A DNA stretch of 64,000 nt from a bacterium (GCA_003232385.1 QIJE01000028.1:1-64000), one strand, 5' to 3'. Numbered from the stretch's first letter, positions 10,961-48,803 are shown. Notes: a model not told the origin generated them from the sequence alone. Program-made: numbers and translations.

Positions 10961-11701
10961 ATGATAAACCTTAAAAATAAAGTAGATATCGAAGGGATAA
11001 AAGCTGCGGGGCAGATCGTAAGGAAGGTATTATTGGAATTATCCGGTATTACAAAACCGGGCATTAAAACAATTGAATATGATATAAAATCGGAAAAGTT
11101 GGTGGCGTCATTAAACGCATCGCCGGCATTTAAGGGATACAACGGGTTTCCGTATTCTGTTTGCGTATCTGTGAACGATGAAGTCGTTCATGGTTTTCCT
11201 TCTCAAAGGAGACTTAGGAACGGTGACATAGTTAGTTTGGATTTTGGTTCCTATTATAAGGGTTATTATGCGGATGCGGCGATTACTCTTGCCGTAGGGG
11301 ATGTTTCAAATACGGCATCGGATCTTATGAGTGTTACCGAGAATGCCTTGAATATTGGAATATCCAAGGCGGTTTGCGGTAATAAAATAAACGATATCTC
11401 TTTGGCGATAGAAAATTTTGTAGTAAGCAATAAATGTTCGGTTGTAAAGGATTTTGTAGGTCACGGAGTCGGATTTAAATTGCATGAGGACCCACAGGTT
11501 CCGAATTATTATGTTAAAGGGAACGATATTTTGATAAAAGAAGGTTTAGTAATAGCCATTGAGCCGATGGTAAATGAGCTTGAATATAAAGTGAGGGTTA
11601 AGAAAAATAGGTGGACGGTTATTACTAAAGATAGAGGGTTCTCCGCTCATTTTGAGCATACCGTCGTGGTAACTAAAGAAGGACCGCAAATTCTAACATA
11701 G
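10961..11701 (+). CDS. map: Type I methionine aminopeptidase
   Basis: [19 protein letters not shown]...[17 protein letters not shown]...IEPMV...[12 protein letters not shown]. Confidence 0.97.
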
Positions 11702-38745: not shown

Positions 38746-40389
38746 ATGAATATTAAATATGCCTTTAGTATCAAGATTAATACGATTATTATTTTGTCGT
38801 GTATTATTCAGCTTTTATTTTTTAATATAAATTCAAATTTTGTTTACGGTAAAACAATGCAGGGGAATAAAGACGGAAATTTCGATATGTTGCTTAAAAA
38901 ATACGGTATAAATCTTAAAAAGCCGCAAGTCATTCCAATAAACAACATAAGCGGCGGATATAATTACCGAAACCGCAGCGGTAATAGTTTTTTGCATAAA
39001 GCCGACATTAAACGGACTATTATGCCGGTTTTTCTTAAGCAGAGGGTTTCACTATCCGGTGACGGAAATGTAAAATCCGCATTAATGCTTCTGTCTCGTG
39101 AAATAGGGATCCCAATAATATTTTATCGCGGTTTTCCGAATAAATTAAAAAATGAGGTTTATTTTAAAAATACTAGATTATATAAAGTTTTGAACGGGCT
39201 TATAACAGATAGCGGTTTTAAATATGTTTACAAAAACGGAGAAATAATTGTCTATGTAGCAGAAGAAAAAACCTTTCATATACCCGTTTCCGATTTATTA
39301 TCCTCTTTTTCCTCTACGGTTGGAATGACGGGAATGAATATTCAGAATAATAACTCGAACAGCATAGCGGCAACAGGTTCTGGAGGCGGCAGCAATATAA
39401 AAGACGGCGATAGCACTGCCGGAAGCGTCAAGACTCCGTCTGACCCCTCCGGCTCACTTTCTTTGAGCTTATCGGAATCCGACAGTCTTTACAATATTGT
39501 TTCAAATAACATAAAAGTAATGCTCGCAAAAGAAGGGAGATATTTTATCAATCGAAAAGACGGGGTTATATGGGTTAAGGGCAGGGTATCGAATGTAGAA
39601 GAGGTATCTCGTTATATAAAGGGTATCAACAAATTTTTCTCTAAACAGGTTTTTTTAAAAGTGGAAGTAATAGATGTAAATTTAAATAGGGGATTTCAGA
39701 CCGGCGTAAACTGGAATTTATTATTTAATAAGGTGTTTAAAGCAGACGCATTAGGGATAAATGCGGTTTCTATTTCCGCTCGGCTTGCTTCTGGAAATGG
39801 CATCAATGATAACGCCCCCTACATAGGATTCACCGGTTCCGGCAATAGCGCCGCTATTCTGAGTGCGCTTAAAATGCAGGGTTCGGTCAACGTTATATCC
39901 CAACCGAGATTGATACTGATGGATGGTCAGACGAGATTAATATCTTCCGGAACTATCACGCCTTACGTCTCAAGTGTTCGAACAATGGCATTGAGTTTGT
40001 CTCAGACGGAAACTTATCCGGTTATATCTCAGGTACAGACAGGGCTTTCCATATCATTTACCCCGCATATTAATTTTAAAGACGATTCGGTTTCGGTTAC
40101 ATTAAGCTTGATAGATAATTCCATCACGGGATATCGGTCTTTCTCTGTTAGCGGGTCAAGTTTTAGCAATCCCGTAATAGAGTCCAAAAGTTTTGCCGAT
40201 ACGGTAAACGTAAAATCCGGCTCCACTATACTCGTCGGCGGGATATTAACTACGGATAAAACTGAAAATAGCTACGGGATACCTCTGTTGTCTAAAATTC
40301 CGCTAATCGGCAATTTATTTAAATCGATAAACGATAGAAGTCACAAAGAAGACTTGCTTATTATGCTAACACCTAAAATTATTCCATAA
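38746..40389 (+). CDS. Secretin (PulD/MshL/PilQ superfamily)
   Basis: N-terminal hydrophobic segment; VNVISQPRLILMDGQTRLISSG...VKSGSTILVGGILTTDKTENSYGIPLLSKIPLIGNLFKS. Confidence 0.92.
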   Translation: MNIKYAFSIKINTIIILSCIIQLLFFNINSNFVYGKTMQGNKDGNFDMLLKKYGINLKKPQVIPINNISGGYNYRNRSGNSFLHKADIKRTIMPVFLKQRVSLSGDGNVKSALMLLSREIGIPIIFYRGFPNKLKNEVYFKNTRLYKVLNGLITDSGFKYVYKNGEIIVYVAEEKTFHIPVSDLLSSFSSTVGMTGMNIQNNNSNSIAATGSGGGSNIKDGDSTAGSVKTPSDPSGSLSLSLSESDSLYNIVSNNIKVMLAKEGRYFINRKDGVIWVKGRVSNVEEVSRYIKGINKFFSKQVFLKVEVIDVNLNRGFQTGVNWNLLFNKVFKADALGINAVSISARLASGNGINDNAPYIGFTGSGNSAAILSALKMQGSVNVISQPRLILMDGQTRLISSGTITPYVSSVRTMALSLSQTETYPVISQVQTGLSISFTPHINFKDDSVSVTLSLIDNSITGYRSFSVSGSSFSNPVIESKSFADTVNVKSGSTILVGGILTTDKTENSYGIPLLSKIPLIGNLFKSINDRSHKEDLLIMLTPKIIP

Positions 40390-40396
40390 TATACTC

Positions 40397-42085
40397 ATGA
40401 GAATCGGAGATTATTTAATATCAAAAGGAAAGTTGACGGATTCACAATTAAAGGATACGCTTCTCGTGCAGTCTATAAACGGCGAGAAGTTGGGCGACAT
40501 ACTTGTTGAAAGCGGTTATGTAAATGACGTGGATATAATAGATTATTTAGTTCAGGATTCAGGTAAGGAATTTTTTCAAGAATTATGCGGCCTTTGTATA
40601 AATAAAAACGAAAATGAAAGGCTTGGATTTAGTTTTCTTTATAGTATTCCCGCAATAATTCTAACAAGAGGCGACGATAACTATATAGTTTGCAGCGAGA
40701 TTACGGAAGACCTCTCGGAGAAAATGGCTTTTGATGAAAATTTGGCCGGATTTAAAATAGGATTATCGACAAAAAGAAAGATTTACGGAGCCCTTAATAG
40801 TACTTTTATCAGCAAATCCGGTTCTTCGGAAAAAGATATATTGGATGAAGCCATAGATAGCGCCTTATTAAAAGGTTCGCCTAATTTAAGGATTAAGCGT
40901 TCGGAAAGTTTTTACGCGGTAATAATGGATACAGATGCAAGACAGGAAACTATAAGGGTTTTAAGCATGGAGTCGGGTCAAAGAATAATAAATATCATAG
41001 CTGCGCACTGCCAGGCAACATTGAAGAAAGGCGAAGGATTAGATGCTAAGTTTATATTCGTTTCCAATTTCTATAAGGGCGTTAAGGTTGATATCAGGGT
41101 TGCGTTCTTACCTATTTCTTCCAAGTTAGATAAAGAGTTGGCGTTATTTGAAGCCGTTTTGAGAATTCACGGCCTTAATAAAGTTATAGATTTTAAATAT
41201 ATCGGATTTTCAGACCGTAAAGCGGAATTATTGAAAAAGGCATATATATATCCGGATGGGTTGATTATTTCTACCGGACCGACCGGTTCCGGGAAAACTA
41301 CCACATTTTATGCGATGTTGAAACTTTTGTCCCAAAAGAAAAAATCTATTATTACGATAGAAGACCCGGTTGAGATTGAACTTAGGGAGTCAAATATAAC
41401 TCAGATGAATATATCGGATAATTTTGGATACGAGGAAGCTATCAGGGTCATGTTGAGAAGCGAACCGGGTATAATGATGGTCGGTGAGATTAGAGACGAG
41501 ACAACAGCAAAATATGCCTTAATTGCGGCGGAAACCGGACATCTCGTTCTTACTACGCTGCATGCCAATTGTTCTCTTGCAATATTTAACAGGTTTAAGT
41601 CTTTGAACGTCGACTTATTACAGCTTTTTTCGCTTTTAAGGTTCGTAACGGCTCAAAGACTTTATACGCCGCTCTGTTTTTCCTGTAAAAAAGAGATTTC
41701 TTTTGAAAAATTACCGCCTTTATATAGAAATGCCATGAAGGAAAGATTTGAATCCGGTATCGATATGCTGTCTTCAGCAAGCTATGACTTTATAAAATCC
41801 GATAAAGTCTTGGGGTTAGATTCGGTATATGTCGGGGGCAAAAACAATTGCGTCGATTGCGGGGGGACAGGGTACGCTAAAAGGAAGCCTATTATTGAAA
41901 TTGCAGAGTTTAACGACGCCGTGAAGGAGGAAATATATAAAGATTCGGCCGTCTTATTTAATCATTCTAAATTGGAAGAAATATTACTAAACCTATCCGG
42001 CTTTGAATCGTTAAAAATTCAAGCGTTTCAAAAGTTAATAAACGGCGAGATAGATCCGGAGACTTATTTTAATCTTTCAAATTAA
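40397..42085 (+). CDS. GspE/PilB-type assembly ATPase with MshEN-like N-terminus
   Basis: STGPTGSGKTTTFYAML; EDPVEIEL; MVGEIRDETTAKYALIAAETGHLVLTTLHAN; C-x2-C pairs. Confidence 0.94.
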   Translation: MRIGDYLISKGKLTDSQLKDTLLVQSINGEKLGDILVESGYVNDVDIIDYLVQDSGKEFFQELCGLCINKNENERLGFSFLYSIPAIILTRGDDNYIVCSEITEDLSEKMAFDENLAGFKIGLSTKRKIYGALNSTFISKSGSSEKDILDEAIDSALLKGSPNLRIKRSESFYAVIMDTDARQETIRVLSMESGQRIINIIAAHCQATLKKGEGLDAKFIFVSNFYKGVKVDIRVAFLPISSKLDKELALFEAVLRIHGLNKVIDFKYIGFSDRKAELLKKAYIYPDGLIISTGPTGSGKTTTFYAMLKLLSQKKKSIITIEDPVEIELRESNITQMNISDNFGYEEAIRVMLRSEPGIMMVGEIRDETTAKYALIAAETGHLVLTTLHANCSLAIFNRFKSLNVDLLQLFSLLRFVTAQRLYTPLCFSCKKEISFEKLPPLYRNAMKERFESGIDMLSSASYDFIKSDKVLGLDSVYVGGKNNCVDCGGTGYAKRKPIIEIAEFNDAVKEEIYKDSAVLFNHSKLEEILLNLSGFESLKIQAFQKLINGEIDPETYFNLSN

Positions 42086-42121
42086 TTTTACGCTGTTCTT
42101 AATTCAGGGTGCGATGTCATT

Positions 42122-43411
42122 ATGAAAAATTTCTTAGTAAGGTACTATGGTCCGGAAGGATGTGTTCTAATAAAAAATATTCAGGCGGAAAGATCGTCCG
42201 ATGTCAGAATCAGGTTAGCCTCGGAAGGTTATCTGTCGTCATTTGTGGTGCCCAATATATTTTTAAATATATTTCATCCGATTAAAAATGCGGGAATGAA
42301 GGATAAAGAACTTTCCGTATTTTTTGTCGAGCTTCATCAACTTGCGCAATCGGTCGGTTCTATCGGCAAGGCTTTTTATTATATAAGTAAAAATAAAAAG
42401 GAAGGTAAGGAATCAAAAACAAATAAAAAACGGAAAGAAAAATTTATATATCTCGTAAAGTGGCTTTACGATGATCACAGGCGGGCAAAAATAAAAAACC
42501 GTAGAAAGCTTGTCGGAGATTGCACGGTTATGTTAGGGAAAGGATATACCTTGGGGGAAATTTTTAAGGTTAATTATTTTGAAGAATTAGTCCTATCTTT
42601 AGTCGACTTGGCGGCTTCAACCGGTAATTACCCCGAGGTCTTTTTAAAAATTTCGGAATTCTTCGATGCCAAAGATTTATATAGAAAAAATGTCGTAGGG
42701 ACGATGGCCTATCCTGCATTTCTGTTTTTTCTGCTTTTTACGGCATTTACAGTATTTTTATACTATATAATTCCGACATTTGCTTCGTTTTTTAGCCAGT
42801 TTTCCCGAATACCGTCTTCGACCGAATACGTGATCTGGCTATTTGCTTATATAAAAAGCATATTTATATACATTATAGTTTTAGCCGTTTCTATTTTTAC
42901 AATAATAATTTTTGATCTATTTGAAATAAAATCAAGGTTACTGGCACTGTTTTTAAATATTCCGACCGTCAGAAATATTTTTAATTACAATTATCTCAGC
43001 TGGTTCTTTTACAGGTTTTCCCTCATGATTTCATCGGGACTCACAATTACCGTCATGTTCGATTATTTTAGAAACAATACGGAAAAGAGGTATTTTAAAT
43101 ATAAATTTGATTTGGTATATAACTGCTTGATGAGCGGTTTTACCTTGCGGGATTCTTTAGACAATGCGGATTTTTTAAGTGAAGACGTCATAGAATCTAT
43201 AGGTTATGGGGAGATAGGGGGGTTTTTGCCGGATACCATACTGAGGTTGTCCAAGGATTTTAAAGAAAAGTCTAGTTATGCCATGCACTTATTTACCAAG
43301 ACGCTGTTCTTTTTAGTCATGGCTTCCGTGGTATTCTTTTTACTTTTGATGTTTTTTTCGTTATTTTTGCCGCTTATACAGGGGATGGTTAGTCTGCCGG
43401 GGAGTTATTAA
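42122..43411 (+). CDS. GspF/PilC-type inner-membrane platform protein
   Basis: Two polytopic GspF-like repeats (VGTMAYPAFLFFLLFTAFTVFLYYIIPTFASFF; NYLSWFFYRFSLMISSGLTI). Confidence 0.88.
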   Translation: MKNFLVRYYGPEGCVLIKNIQAERSSDVRIRLASEGYLSSFVVPNIFLNIFHPIKNAGMKDKELSVFFVELHQLAQSVGSIGKAFYYISKNKKEGKESKTNKKRKEKFIYLVKWLYDDHRRAKIKNRRKLVGDCTVMLGKGYTLGEIFKVNYFEELVLSLVDLAASTGNYPEVFLKISEFFDAKDLYRKNVVGTMAYPAFLFFLLFTAFTVFLYYIIPTFASFFSQFSRIPSSTEYVIWLFAYIKSIFIYIIVLAVSIFTIIIFDLFEIKSRLLALFLNIPTVRNIFNYNYLSWFFYRFSLMISSGLTITVMFDYFRNNTEKRYFKYKFDLVYNCLMSGFTLRDSLDNADFLSEDVIESIGYGEIGGFLPDTILRLSKDFKEKSSYAMHLFTKTLFFLVMASVVFFLLLMFFSLFLPLIQGMVSLPGSY

Positions 43412-43476
43412 TAAGAATAATGAATAAATTTATCTAACTTCATCTATAAAAAGCATTTATGGGGAGGAACAAAAAT

Positions 43477-44049
43477 ATGACAGTGAGAGAAGACGCATCA
43501 GGATTCACTTTAATGGAAATCATAGTAGCAATGATCATCGTCGGCATATTGTCTGCCGGCGGATTAATGGTTTACAACGGACTTATCGGATCTTCTAACG
43601 TTACGGCGGCGGTCCAATCTATTTCCAAGCTCGAATCGGCAGTCAATTCGTATGTGCAGGTAAACGGGGGGAGTATTATTCCCCCTGCCGGCATTACGTT
43701 ACCGCATGCAATGCAGGATAATAACTTGATTCCTGCGTCGTGGACCGTTAATGCGAGTGACGTAACCCCTCCCAATAAGGGTTTCGTGCAAAGTTATTAT
43801 ATTGCTACCAATGCAAGTCCCGGACGGTATGATTACGTCATAGGCATAGTCGCTCCGCAGATGACCAATGCACAGGCGCTAAATATATGTGATTCTTTAG
43901 AAAATTCTATTTCGGGCGTTAACGCAAACGAGGGTACCGGTTTTAATATAGGTAGCGGGAGAACATGTTTAAGTAATTTATTCGGAGGTAATGCCGCTAA
44001 TGCCAACAATTCTATTTTTCATGGAAATTTAACATTTACCTTTAATTAA
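43477..44049 (+). CDS. Type IV major pilin-like protein
   Basis: Class III signal ASG/FTLMEIIVAMIIVGILSAGG with Glu5; two C-terminal Cys (NICDSLE, RTCLSN); ATG 43477 has ggggagg upstream. Confidence 0.87.
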   Translation: MTVREDASGFTLMEIIVAMIIVGILSAGGLMVYNGLIGSSNVTAAVQSISKLESAVNSYVQVNGGSIIPPAGITLPHAMQDNNLIPASWTVNASDVTPPNKGFVQSYYIATNASPGRYDYVIGIVAPQMTNAQALNICDSLENSISGVNANEGTGFNIGSGRTCLSNLFGGNAANANNSIFHGNLTFTFN

Positions 44050-44086
44050 AAAAATATAATAACTGTATTTATTAAACCTTAATCCT

Positions 44087-44737
44087 TTGATCATTATGAG
44101 ATATCTTATATTGTTACTGCTATTATCATCGTCATGGTTTGTCGTTTTTAATCCAAGCGTTTTTTTAAAATTATGTTATGGACTTAGCGAGGGTAAGATT
44201 TATAACAAGCAGGCCCAAAATATCGTAGATACGGCAGATTTAATCGTAAAGGCGGAGCATGCGCACCTGTTTGACAAGGGGAGTTTCGCCGACTTAGCCG
44301 ATCTTGAAAGGGAAAAACCTCCATATTTAAGTCCGATGGCCATTTATGTTCGTAACGGTGAAGAATGTATTAAAAAGAAATTATTTGAAAATAGCGTTTA
44401 TATTTGCATAGAGCTTAAAAATAAAAAAAATGAATTAAATATTTTTATGCCGAAATATTCCGCTTCTTCCGATATCGTATCGCGGGAAATTAGCGAAGGC
44501 ATTACAGGCACAGCGGGGCAAATTGTTTATGGCTCCGACGCGGCGAAGGTTTCCTTTGCATTGAATAAATACGGCATGTCTCATACCGATTCTGCTGTTA
44601 CCGTCAATTCAACTTTGACGAGTCCGAATGTGAACGGCGGCATAAGTTATGTCAATGCCGATGTAAAAAGCTCTCTTTTGAGCAAAATTATAAAGACTAC
44701 GGTTGGATTTTTAACCTCAATCTTAACCCTTTTTTAA
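44087..44737 (+). CDS. Uncharacterised protein in pilus-like locus
   Basis: 216-aa ORF with N-terminal hydrophobic segment and hydrophobic C-terminus, between two pilin genes. Confidence 0.7.
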   Translation: MIIMRYLILLLLLSSSWFVVFNPSVFLKLCYGLSEGKIYNKQAQNIVDTADLIVKAEHAHLFDKGSFADLADLEREKPPYLSPMAIYVRNGEECIKKKLFENSVYICIELKNKKNELNIFMPKYSASSDIVSREISEGITGTAGQIVYGSDAAKVSFALNKYGMSHTDSAVTVNSTLTSPNVNGGISYVNADVKSSLLSKIIKTTVGFLTSILTLF

Positions 44738-44767
44738 GAAAAATGCAGGAGAAGGAGGCGATAGAAT

Positions 44768-45784
44768 ATGTTTATGCGATTTATCATTGCCGGTATTATA
44801 GCGGGCAAGGGCAACAATAAAGGATTTTCACTAATGGGAGTTGTTGTTTCCATAATCATTGTTTCCATAATGGCGGTTATGTCGATACCGGCACTTAAGG
44901 GGGCGTTATTCGAGGACAGGGCAAATAACGTCTCCATACTTGCAAATACGCTGATAAACGCCGAAAGCACTTACGTAAATAATAAGAGAAAGTTCGGCAA
45001 CATATTGCCCCTTCAAAAAGCAGATTATTTATCTCAAGGACTTGGAATAAACCTTATTAAAGGTAAGTCTTATCCAAATTGTATATACGGTACTATAGAG
45101 TCTAAAAACGATACTAAAATATGCCTCAGCGTTAATAACGGCATCGTTAGCGGTACCCCCGGAGAAATAAGCTATGCGCTTACCATATCGGTCGCCGACA
45201 ATCGCGTATCGGGTAACTATTACAACTACTATAGGGAGGTGAGCGATAATATACCGGGAAGTTCCATAGTTAACGGCAAGAAAATAATTTACATAGATCC
45301 TATAGCCATAAGCAGTTACGGTGGCGCTTACGGTCCGTATGTAGGAAAGAATTTTTATATAACGGGAGCAGCTTGCTATATCAGGAGATATTACCGCGTA
45401 AAGGAGAGGTTCGGCTATCGTAAATACGAGAGAGTAGTGAGTGACGGGCCCCTTAAACTTTATTTTATAGTGGAGGCGGTGAGGGGTGACGAGGCAATAT
45501 TGAGTTATGCCGATGATTCGGTTTTTAATTGCATCGATAAAAAAATTCCTATTTACAAATATAATGCAGGAGACTCTTATACCTCTGTTACATGGATAAA
45601 TGGGGCATTCCAAAATTCCTATCTCCCCGAAGTCAGGGGAATGGTCGAATATGAAATTTGGAACAGAATTCGTAATATAGTAACCGACTATGTTCCGATA
45701 AGACCGTCCGGCTATGAAATAGAAATACCGGCGGATTACTTACCGAAATTGATAAATTTGAATCAAACCAATACGGAGAATTAA
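44768..45784 (+). CDS. Large pilin-like protein (candidate minor/tip subunit)
   Basis: KG/FSLMGVVVSIIIVSIMAVMSIPALKG prepilin-like N-terminus; ggaggcg upstream. Confidence 0.78.
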   Translation: MFMRFIIAGIIAGKGNNKGFSLMGVVVSIIIVSIMAVMSIPALKGALFEDRANNVSILANTLINAESTYVNNKRKFGNILPLQKADYLSQGLGINLIKGKSYPNCIYGTIESKNDTKICLSVNNGIVSGTPGEISYALTISVADNRVSGNYYNYYREVSDNIPGSSIVNGKKIIYIDPIAISSYGGAYGPYVGKNFYITGAACYIRRYYRVKERFGYRKYERVVSDGPLKLYFIVEAVRGDEAILSYADDSVFNCIDKKIPIYKYNAGDSYTSVTWINGAFQNSYLPEVRGMVEYEIWNRIRNIVTDYVPIRPSGYEIEIPADYLPKLINLNQTNTEN

Positions 45785-45856
45785 AATGCGTTAAATTTGG
45801 AGCACAGGGGTTTGGGTTTATAAGCGTAAATAAAAATAATTATAACATGATTTTAA

Positions 45857-47053
45857 ATGCTTAAGAATATAATTTATATAGAAGAGTACGGAATATACCA
45901 GTACTTCGACGGCGGCAAATCCGTTTTTTCGCATGATAATCCGAATGAGGCCGAATACGGCGGGGGAGTTGCCGCGGTTGCCGTGATATCCAAAAATATA
46001 AATTTTTCCGCGATTTATAAAAAAGATATCGGGCGGGCGACGAAATCCGGTTCCCTTAAATATCTCAGCAAATATTACGGGAGCAAATCTTATTTTGTCG
46101 CTTTTAACGGCAGTAAAGAATATGGAATATATTATAGTCTACCCTCTAATATCAAGGAATATTATTTATTAAAAGGTATTGATTTCGTTATACCTTACGA
46201 TTATTTGGCAATATTATTTTTAAATTTTTTAAATGAAAAGCTGAATGCGGATAAGTACGGCAGATTCATTTTTGTCGAAGAAACAGAAAATATTTATAAA
46301 ATTACGGTAATTACAAATGGATTTAGCGTATTTCCAGTGATTAGTTTTAAAGGGGACATGCTGAATGAAAATTTGTCGCTCTTGATAGCCAAACTGAATT
46401 TTAAAGGAGTCAAAATAGAAAAAATATTTATAAACGGCAACGATGAGGATTTTAATCATAATATCAACGCATTATTCCCCGAAGCCGGAATAATTAATTT
46501 TAATACGGGAGATTTTTTTGAATTTTTTGATAATATGGAGAGGCAGACGCCGCATTTCGAAAATCCGAATGTTAAATTAAAAGAGCTCCGTATTAAAAAA
46601 AATAGACTGAATAATATTTATATGGGGGCATTAATCGTTTTTATCATTATAATACAATTTACTATTCTATCCGTAAACAAAAAAATATATACGGAAAGTC
46701 GGGGAATCAATGTTTTAAACAGTAGTATCGGTTATTTATCAAGACAGATAAAATACGAAAGGCGGAAAGCTTTTTTTAATGAACACTTTGAGTCCCCCTA
46801 TATTCTCCCTTATTTAAAGAGGCTTATATCGATTTTTCCAAAGGGGATGAAAATAAAAAGCCTCATCATAACAAAAGTAAAAAATATATATGCGGTGAAG
46901 GGAACAGCTTTTGTTTTTGGCGGATATAGAAGTTTTGCCAAGAGTTACGATATGCTTTTAGAAAACGCGTCATCCTTGAAAAATATGCATTTTTCATACG
47001 ATTTAGATAAATTTGAAAGACCCTATATTAAATTTTACGGAAACATAAAATGA
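45857..47053 (+). CDS. GspL/PilM-PilN-like bitopic assembly protein
   Basis: ~260-aa N-terminal domain, one TM (IYMGALIVFIIIIQFTILSV), then PilN-like periplasmic domain; ATGA overlap with next ORF. Confidence 0.55.
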   Translation: MLKNIIYIEEYGIYQYFDGGKSVFSHDNPNEAEYGGGVAAVAVISKNINFSAIYKKDIGRATKSGSLKYLSKYYGSKSYFVAFNGSKEYGIYYSLPSNIKEYYLLKGIDFVIPYDYLAILFLNFLNEKLNADKYGRFIFVEETENIYKITVITNGFSVFPVISFKGDMLNENLSLLIAKLNFKGVKIEKIFINGNDEDFNHNINALFPEAGIINFNTGDFFEFFDNMERQTPHFENPNVKLKELRIKKNRLNNIYMGALIVFIIIIQFTILSVNKKIYTESRGINVLNSSIGYLSRQIKYERRKAFFNEHFESPYILPYLKRLISIFPKGMKIKSLIITKVKNIYAVKGTAFVFGGYRSFAKSYDMLLENASSLKNMHFSYDLDKFERPYIKFYGNIK

Positions 47054-47565
47054 AAAAATTTGAGAATGGCAAACCTATTGCGATAGCCTTGTTGTCTCTA
47101 TCGGTCATTTATTTGTTTTGTTTTAATCTATTTCCGCTAATTCGTGATTGTTATAGGTTAAATATCGTCTATATCAATAAAACACATAGAGAAAAATCAT
47201 TAGAAGTTAAGCTGAGCAATTTGAAAAGAGTAAAACTCATGAGATTTAAGGCAGGATACCACAGGTTGTCCACCGATATTTTAACGATATTGTCGTATAT
47301 AAATTATCTGAAAAAAAGCGGTCTTGATATTAAGGTTAAAACAAACACAAGGGGCTATGAAAATAATTCATCCTTGAATTTTAAAGATATGACAATAGTG
47401 TTGAAAAAAATTTACAATATCGGCATCGTATTTTCATTTTTAAAAACATTTAATGCATTTCCGATAGAGATTAAAAAAATATCTTTAGTATCTGTTAATG
47501 GCATGAATGCCGTTATATACATTAAGCTAATCGGATTAGTTAAAGAGAGAGGGGTTGCAAAGTGA
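47050..47565 (+). CDS. PilO/GspM-like inner-membrane protein
   Basis: Short N-terminus, single TM, predicted coiled coil, ferredoxin-like-sized domain; position. Confidence 0.5.
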   Translation: MKKFENGKPIAIALLSLSVIYLFCFNLFPLIRDCYRLNIVYINKTHREKSLEVKLSNLKRVKLMRFKAGYHRLSTDILTILSYINYLKKSGLDIKVKTNTRGYENNSSLNFKDMTIVLKKIYNIGIVFSFLKTFNAFPIEIKKISLVSVNGMNAVIYIKLIGLVKERGVAK

Positions 47566-48119
47566 CTGTTGCCGGTATTTTAAGCCTTTTTAAGGGCACA
47601 ATCAAGTGGATTATACTCGCAGTTGGCGGAATTTTCGTCATAATTTTAATTTTAGGGCTAATGAAAGGCGAATCGGGGGGATTCAAAAGCCATATAGTAA
47701 AATCCCGTCATCTCAGCAATAAAGAAAAAGGCAGAGTCGTAACGAAAAGGTCGACGGGCAGTGCCGGCAATATTGCCAAGTTGAGGGATATATTCAATCT
47801 TCCGGATAAAAGGGATATGAAGTTCAATTCCCACTTTGCTCTTTCCGTAAAAAATAACGGGATAGATTCTTCGCGTCATTCGGGCGACGTATTGCCATAT
47901 TTTTTTAATAGCGTAAAGATTAAAAAGTTTTCCAATGATATAATACTGCATCCGTCTTTAATATTTACGGGCGGCAAGGTTGCTTTGATCAAAATCGATG
48001 GAAAACCTTACTATGTTCATGCCGGAACAAACATAAAAGATATTTTTATAATAAAGGTCGGGCTATCCGGCGTAAGCTATTCATATAAGGGAAAAATAGA
48101 ATATTTAGGCTTCAAATAA
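47562..48119 (+). CDS. PilP/GspC-like inner-membrane protein
   Basis: GTG start overlapping previous stop; single TM; C-terminal ALIKIDGKPYYVHAGTNIKDIFIIKVGLSGVSYSYKGKIEYLGF. Confidence 0.5.
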   Translation: MTVAGILSLFKGTIKWIILAVGGIFVIILILGLMKGESGGFKSHIVKSRHLSNKEKGRVVTKRSTGSAGNIAKLRDIFNLPDKRDMKFNSHFALSVKNNGIDSSRHSGDVLPYFFNSVKIKKFSNDIILHPSLIFTGGKVALIKIDGKPYYVHAGTNIKDIFIIKVGLSGVSYSYKGKIEYLGFK

Positions 48120-48137
48120 AAAAAAGCGGTTAATAAT

Positions 48138-48803
48138 TCAAATGGTCGTGAATTCGAGACTGTTTATGGAAATCAATTCTAAAAGGGATATTATGTTGGA
48201 ATAATACATAACTTGATTTTCGGGATTTGCAACATTAATATCGTCCTTATTTTCGTAAACCGTATTTTGCATAAATTCATTTAATATTTTATGACCTAAG
48301 TACATTATTTTTTTTAGTTTTATATTTGTTCTATTTTTTGCATTTATATCTTTTTCGCCATTCAAGAAAAATATATCAATATTTTCTTTAAAAAAAGAGC
48401 TTACGGCAAGAGTAAAATTCGGAATATACGCCTGTTTTTTAAATGTAGGATACCCGTAAAGTTTACCGATATTAAATTTTATTAAGACTATGGCGTTATT
48501 TATGCTTTTTAAATTAGCGGTGAATTTTATCAATCGTACAATTTCCGGCAAAAATTTTTTGTAGTCAGTCATCTTTTTTTTATTTTTCGGTGAGGCAGTA
48601 ACTGCCGTCACAAGTTTGTTGATTTCATTGCATATTCTCATCGTATCATTTTTGATTATGGTTTCGAAGTCGACATTATGCCGCTTGTAATTATTAGATA
48701 TAAGCTCAGTTAATATCTCCTCAAGGTCCTGCTCAACGATATCTGAAAATTCCGTTGCTTTCGCATCTAATATTTTCGTCATATCATTGTTGTTTATCAT
48801 CAT
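48138..48803 (-). CDS. Uncharacterised protein, no recognised family
   Basis: Intact 221-aa ORF on minus strand, convergent with pilus-like locus. Confidence 0.65.
   Translation of the reverse strand: MMINNNDMTKILDAKATEFSDIVEQDLEEILTELISNNYKRHNVDFETIIKNDTMRICNEINKLVTAVTASPKNKKKMTDYKKFLPEIVRLIKFTANLKSINNAIVLIKFNIGKLYGYPTFKKQAYIPNFTLAVSSFFKENIDIFFLNGEKDINAKNRTNIKLKKIMYLGHKILNEFMQNTVYENKDDINVANPENQVMYYSNIISLLELISINSLEFTTI

Follow-up and report, generated by a model that had tools for sequence, protein, structure and literature searches.

The nine genes at positions 38746-48119 of a bacterial DNA stretch of 64,000 nt (GCA_003232385.1 QIJE01000028.1:1-64000, here called the window) most likely encode a machine that builds a proteinaceous filament across the envelope. 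Within the type IV filament superfamily, they form a genuine branch that is restricted to one family and apparently undescribed. In our opinion, the operon probably encodes a complete machine of this type, gated by cyclic di-GMP (c-di-GMP), equipped with a minimal GspK-type tip and belonging to a distinct lineage. The constituents by which the superfamily is defined were all found, namely an assembly ATPase, a GspF/PilC platform, a pilin with a class III signal and a secretin. The genes, the last three of which are called L, O and P, are the following.

38746-40389, plus strand: secretin, 547 residues, with a signal peptide, an STN-type N-terminus and a secretin barrel (PF00263, 123 bits)
40397-42085, plus strand: assembly ATPase, 562 residues, with an MshEN N-domain, an altered N2 domain, an intact catalytic core and a tetracysteine motif (T2SSE, 201 bits)
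42122-43411, plus strand: inner-membrane platform, GspF/PilC-like, 429 residues (T2SSF, 70 bits; tree and profile search)
43477-44049, plus strand: major pilin, 190 residues, G-FTLME (Pfam N_methyl, alignment, conservation, ribosome-binding site)
44096-44737, plus strand: 'orphan' with a Sec-type leader, a pilin-like body and a conserved hydrophobic C-terminus ending in Phe (hhalign, profile)
44768-45784, plus strand: large GspK-type tip pilin, 338 residues, G-FSLMG, no Glu5 (N_methyl, orthologue alignment)
45857-47053, plus strand: L, GspL/PilM-PilN-type, with an actin-like cytoplasmic domain, one transmembrane helix and a periplasmic domain (AlphaFold, Foldseek)
47050-47565, plus strand: O, putative PilO/GspM-like inner-membrane protein with an N-terminal transmembrane helix (hhalign; position, architecture)
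47562-48119, plus strand: P, putative PilP/GspC-like protein with a transmembrane helix and a C-terminal beta domain (hhalign)

The open reading frames are separated by short gaps or 4-nt overlaps, the latter at both L-O and O-P. An earlier note on this DNA had listed nine co-directional frames, and all of them were recovered at the same positions on the plus strand. Its secretin, ATPase, platform and Glu5 pilin were accepted by Pfam (Secretin, T2SSE and T2SSF with the scores given above, N_methyl in the first pilin), and the 338-residue protein that it called pilin-like matched N_methyl with 20 bits as a protein (threshold 21.2) and with 23.9 bits in the genome search. Pfam and NCBIfam gave no family match for the orphan, L and P and a sub-threshold match to a domain of unknown function for O; these four lack an accepted family, yet they are conserved in relatives and are therefore genes. 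Mean pairwise identity across the operon proteins ranges from 0.46 (P) to 0.79 in the major pilin, the best-conserved of them. Two starts were revised: the major pilin probably begins at ATG 43477, not 43459, with GGGAGGA upstream and a leader of 9 residues, and the orphan probably at ATG 44096 rather than TTG 44087. Promoter and terminator scans of the locus performed no better than on shuffled sequences. Horizontal gain was also judged by composition and gave no signal, the guanine-cytosine content of the locus (36.4%) being close to that of the window (36.8%).

The operon is conserved within one bacterial family. The synteny comparison proposed in the earlier note found all nine genes in exactly this order in 10 related loci that are complete; an eleventh, L048, contains the first seven genes and then reaches the contig end. 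The host genome (1.54 Mb, 95% complete, 3 secretins) appears to belong to Candidatus Acidulodesulfobacterales, known from acid-mine sites (PMC6776010). Orthologues of the ATPase were found in 17 of 30 genomes of this family, the 16 other members having 61-74% identity, and two further ATPase sets of the same family are more remote (37-39% and 31-36% identity); beyond the family, the best matches are comparable to ordinary PilB. The operon type that includes the window is designated group 1, and two sister types of the same family are groups 2 and 3. A platform profile of the clade, searched against 386 genomes and 399 genomes of another phylum, gave 388-598 bits on complete clade copies and no more than 151 bits on everything else. 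In all samples searched, the lineage is confined to one family of bacteria, probably from acid mines. The system is accessory, because no high-scoring platform copy is present in G003, G004, G018 and G025, four members of the family with 96-100% completeness.

The ATPase keeps Walker A, Walker B, the Asp box, the His box, both CxxC pairs and both arginine fingers (R234 and R256 in the window copy) in an alignment with motif positions taken from PMC5424180, and because of these residues it should be active. Its N2 domain is unusual in groups 1 and 2, where ASDxHxEP is replaced by SPNLRIKR or similar and PQDGR by GLDAKF or similar; additional residues are present between the arginine fingers, and the zinc loop is longer. 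Loss of catalytic arginines, considered in view of the replaced RxRxDG and PQDGR, was rejected, both arginine fingers being present.

The N-domain of this ATPase passes the MshEN model NF053729 of NCBIfam (51 bits, cut-off 38) and matches the structure of the MshE N-domain, 5htl, in a PDB profile search. Its motif I fits the published one (PMC5013675) apart from one position and a conservative Ile. The host genome gave 9 GGDEF matches. Proteins with GGEEF are encoded in five of the six closest sister operons, and HD-domain proteins likewise in five of six, which supports a predicted c-di-GMP link for the clade. GGDEF proteins with intact GGEEF lie at 16256-16927 in L052, 10433-11086 in L053, 510-1163 in L054, 9883-10578 in L056 and 7142-7861 in L057. 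Most of the sister operons also carry an HD-domain protein, the one in L055 (404-1024) having the full HD-GYP signature. Sister filament operons thus appear to encode their own c-di-GMP enzymes, the GGDEF protein being a likely c-di-GMP synthase.

The major pilin has the leader MTVREDASG followed by FTLME, with Phe as the first mature residue (Phe+1), and contains one Cys pair in its C-terminal part. The second pilin is larger (338 versus 190 residues) and without Glu5, the combination that characterises the GspK family; absence of Glu5 from a large pilin is a hallmark of GspK (PMC5207764). Glu5 is missing, with the motif FSLxG, in all 12 copies compared (the window copy and 11 orthologues) and also in the large-pilin homologues of groups 2 and 3. 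An AlphaFold model of the large pilin (predicted local distance difference test score, pLDDT, 45) gave meaningless Foldseek matches and was not used.

The 216-residue protein that the earlier note had left as an orphan is a conserved gene and is not an orphan. Comparison with the large pilin by hhalign gave 88% probability (E 3e-6, 128 columns), and the orphan profile independently retrieves large pilins. Its N-terminus resembles a Sec signal peptide and lacks the pilin motif. The protein is read as a divergent paralogue of the tip pilin that probably switched to Sec export.

The protein L, which the same note had compared with GspL and PilMN, gave no match in a PDB profile search; fold comparison gave matches. 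Its AlphaFold model (pLDDT 79) was assigned by Foldseek, with a probability of 1.00, to PilM and to the cytoplasmic domain of GspL (4pht_Y). As modelled, L is a GspL-type fusion of a PilM-like domain, a transmembrane helix and a periplasmic domain. L, O and P matched their group 2 counterparts in hhalign with 99%, 98% and 96.5%, respectively, and the group 2 counterpart of P matched that of group 3 with 96.7%. The PilO-like and PilP-like proteins of the earlier note are conserved in relatives, and their proposed identities agree with ours: by position and architecture, O may be regarded as PilO/GspM-like, and the beta domain of P is probably PilP/GspC-like.

The earlier note had seen no prepilin peptidase, retraction ATPase, transglycosylase or pilotin. 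None was recognised within the operon; elsewhere, the genome encodes one prepilin peptidase (Peptidase_A24 at C2:96833) and two PilT-like ATPases. One of the latter belongs to a separate type IVa pilus (T4aP) set, pilB-pilT-pilC on C2, accompanied by pilM-to-pilQ-like genes, and the second lies on C4; a further PilB/GspE-GspF-like pair is present on C10. Being encoded elsewhere in the genome, peptidase and PilT are therefore available in trans. According to Denise et al. (PMC6668835), no locus of the mannose-sensitive haemagglutinin (MSHA, or MSH) type includes a peptidase, which may be borrowed from another system.

Trees of ATPase, secretin and platform were constructed with references from E. 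coli (gsp and hof), plasmids of the R64 type, MSHA systems scoring above the MshL cut-off or close to it, the host's own T4aP and several type II secretion systems (T2SS), several reference labels having been assigned by us from gene context. The three operon types form one clade (100/100 for the ATPase, 100/99 for the secretin and a split of 94/95 for the platform), which is separate from all MSHA, T2SS and T4aP sequences in the sample; its nearest neighbour is the R64-type IVb (T4b) lineage. The two were paired in the ATPase tree with 96/96 after removal of outgroups and long rows, and in the secretin tree with 96/94, or 99/97 after removal of two long branches. In approximately unbiased (AU) tests, placing the secretin clade with T2SS was rejected (p 0.005) and with MSH marginally rejected (p 0.03); for the ATPase clade, placement with T4a rows was not rejected (p-AU 0.104), and that with T2SS narrowly not rejected (p 0.0515). 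A discrete character agrees with the placement in the trees. R455 of Geobacter PilB is an inter-chain arginine whose position is reportedly conserved within the PilB/GspE clade and nowhere else (PMC5424180). It was assigned to the QRLxR motif by a residue count starting at the His box; this position is Arg or Lys in every sampled PilB, GspE, MshE and HofB, and the arginine is absent in the clade under study and in the two readable R64 rows. These data suggest that the operon lineage may be a distinct one that branches on the side of T4b. They agree with the idea of a type IV filament-type machine outside the sampled Msh, T2SS and T4aP clades. Nesting within a clade of Msh, Tcp/R64 or T2SS that shares the gene order would have spoken against that idea; it was not found among the sampled clades, from which T4b pili of the Tcp type were absent.

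The profile of PilN gave 123 bits on the secretin against a cut-off of 288. A search of 386 genomes with the R64 PilN family gave no match and was uninformative, as the controls were silent too. Domain annotation of the clade's secretins is uneven, with STN recognised in 5 of 17 and Secretin_N in 3 of 17. Near the secretin of an Opitutaceae plasmid (L197), all annotations are hypothetical proteins.

Several observations weigh against a c-di-GMP-gated T4b-side filament. The filament is a prediction from the genes. In its short leader and Phe+1, the major pilin resembles T4a rather than T4b pilins. Long branches occur in both the clade and R64, and their pairing may be due to attraction; moreover, grouping of the ATPase clade with MSH was not rejected (p-AU 0.136). 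In MshEN motif II, the final Gln, equivalent to Gln61 of MshE (PMC5013675), is missing. Finally, the L045 relative has the major pilin and all machine genes intact and neither orphan nor tip pilin, about 18 nt separating the major pilin from L (11531-11549); elsewhere in that genome, the orphan was not found, the only pilin match being weak. Either the tip module is dispensable there, or the machine is idle.

If the operon does encode such a filament, its probable working may be outlined by homology. The single genomic prepilin peptidase would process both the major and the large tip pilin, and the latter, lacking Glu5 as GspK does, may prime or cap the filament. The ATPase would drive the platform and thereby polymerisation of the major pilin, with L, O and P aligning the platform with the secretin. 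The Sec-exported orphan could be a tip partner or a carried protein, comparable to CofJ and TcpF in T4b systems, and the MshEN domain would couple extension to c-di-GMP. A bolder version supposes a separate class of type IV filament that arose from the T4b side and is restricted to one deep bacterial lineage, with minor pilins reduced to a GspK-type tip and a Sec-exported paralogue as cargo and with c-di-GMP setting growth at the motor; we consider it doubtful.

The operon is a further branch, distinct and compact by nature, of a superfamily in which the minimal requirements for tip and assembly are debated. The L045 relative, retaining the rest of the machine, represents a natural deletion bearing on the need for a tip complex, and the location of a likely c-di-GMP synthase beside an MshEN motor in sister operons offers a direct test of local signalling to a single filament.

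Some neighbouring genes deserve mention. A 221-residue protein of unknown family (48138-48803 in the window) is found near the operon in relatives, on the other strand, and in several of them a convergent gene for a 510-residue major facilitator superfamily transporter lies between it and P; the transporter is absent in the window (48119-48138). An SLT lytic transglycosylase with an adjoining small lipoprotein-like protein accompanies the operons of groups 2 and 3 (552-1609 in L053, 13717-14936 in L058), and both are absent in group 1, including the window. Group 2 also contains a small secreted protein (1027-1602 in L055, 2396-2809 in L053), without a Pfam match and by eye similar to STN/secretin N-domains, possibly a separate secretin collar protein.

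No published description of this operon branch was found in the literature searched, and the known systems resemble it in different respects. The order D-E-F-G...K-L-M of E. coli gsp corresponds to secretin, ATPase, platform, pilin, large pilin, L and O. The alignment genes do stand at the distal end, as the earlier note had stated, and its reading of this as a rearrangement is revised, since this is the normal place of L and M in T2SS. This order, with a GspK-type pilin lacking Glu5 immediately 5' of a GspL-like fused protein, raises the alternative of type II-like secretion, in which a short periplasmic endopilus is kept inside the secretin by the GspK-type tip and pushes out the orphan or other substrates. 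The lack of a retraction ATPase in the operon agrees with it, and the high mean pairwise identity of the major pilin is more in keeping with a shielded pseudopilin than with an exposed pilin. However, the secretin and ATPase fall outside T2SS sequences, the AU test rejected a grouping of the secretin clade with T2SS, and the T2SS cut-offs were not reached (GspD 125 versus 351 bits, GspE 177 versus 630 bits). Genes H, I, J and O are missing at the locus, which has only the K-like pilin and the pilin-like orphan, the PilP/GspC-like gene is last instead of first, and the C-terminal Cys pair of the major pilin is as in type IV pilins. T2SS are characterised by a GspC with HR and PDZ domains; its putative counterpart here, P, has the beta domain described above. 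Secretion is favoured by the gene order and the strong conservation of the major pilin, a pilus by the Cys pair and phylogeny; on balance, secretion seems possible and somewhat unlikely.

A divergent MSHA-type adhesive pilus under c-di-GMP control, its I-J-K genes relocated to the end, is improbable. MshL is the best NCBIfam match of the secretin (160 bits), the MshEN domain is present, the locus is single and without a peptidase, as in MSH loci (PMC6668835), the closest sister operons retain an L-O-P-secretin order, and the ATPase test given above permits such a grouping. At the same time, the secretin stays under the MshL cut-off of 250 bits and its clade was marginally separated from MSH; the gene order is different; the ATPase lacks the inter-chain arginine of all sampled MSH ATPases; and MshM, which the MSH model requires (PMC6668835), is encoded neither in the operon nor directly beside it, no genome-wide search having been made.

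T4aP systems differ in having separate PilM and PilN instead of a fused L, and the ATPase of the locus, without the inter-chain Arg, lies outside the PilB rows. As compact systems of such kind can perform DNA uptake, and the best NCBIfam match of the platform is ComGB (125 bits, under the cut-off), a DNA-uptake pilus was considered. It is very improbable: no ComEA- or ComEC-type gene was recognised in the operon, and the genome encodes, apart from this operon, a T4aP with pilT, the type that diderms normally use for uptake.

On the side of the preferred filament reading, R64/IncI T4b pili are the nearest sampled lineage by secretin and ATPase and share with the locus the missing inter-chain arginine and the order secretin-ATPase-platform-pilin. 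The R64-like order of the earlier note is confirmed in that part, whereas the order as a whole follows T2SS. In loci of the R64 type, unlike the operon described here, PilO and PilP are inserted between secretin and ATPase, and the locus encodes its own transglycosylase and peptidase. The long leader and non-Phe first residue typical of T4b pilins are not found in the major pilin of the operon. The toxin-coregulated pilus (TCP) and colonization factor antigen III (CFA/III), as known from the literature (PMC5207764, PMC9565799), differ in that TcpB retains Glu5 and that the orphan here is itself pilin-like. They resemble the operon in their single locus, single large minor pilin, lack of a retraction ATPase and co-encoded secreted protein, and in these pili the minor pilin starts assembly and the tip carries out the co-encoded protein (PMC5207764, PMC9565799).

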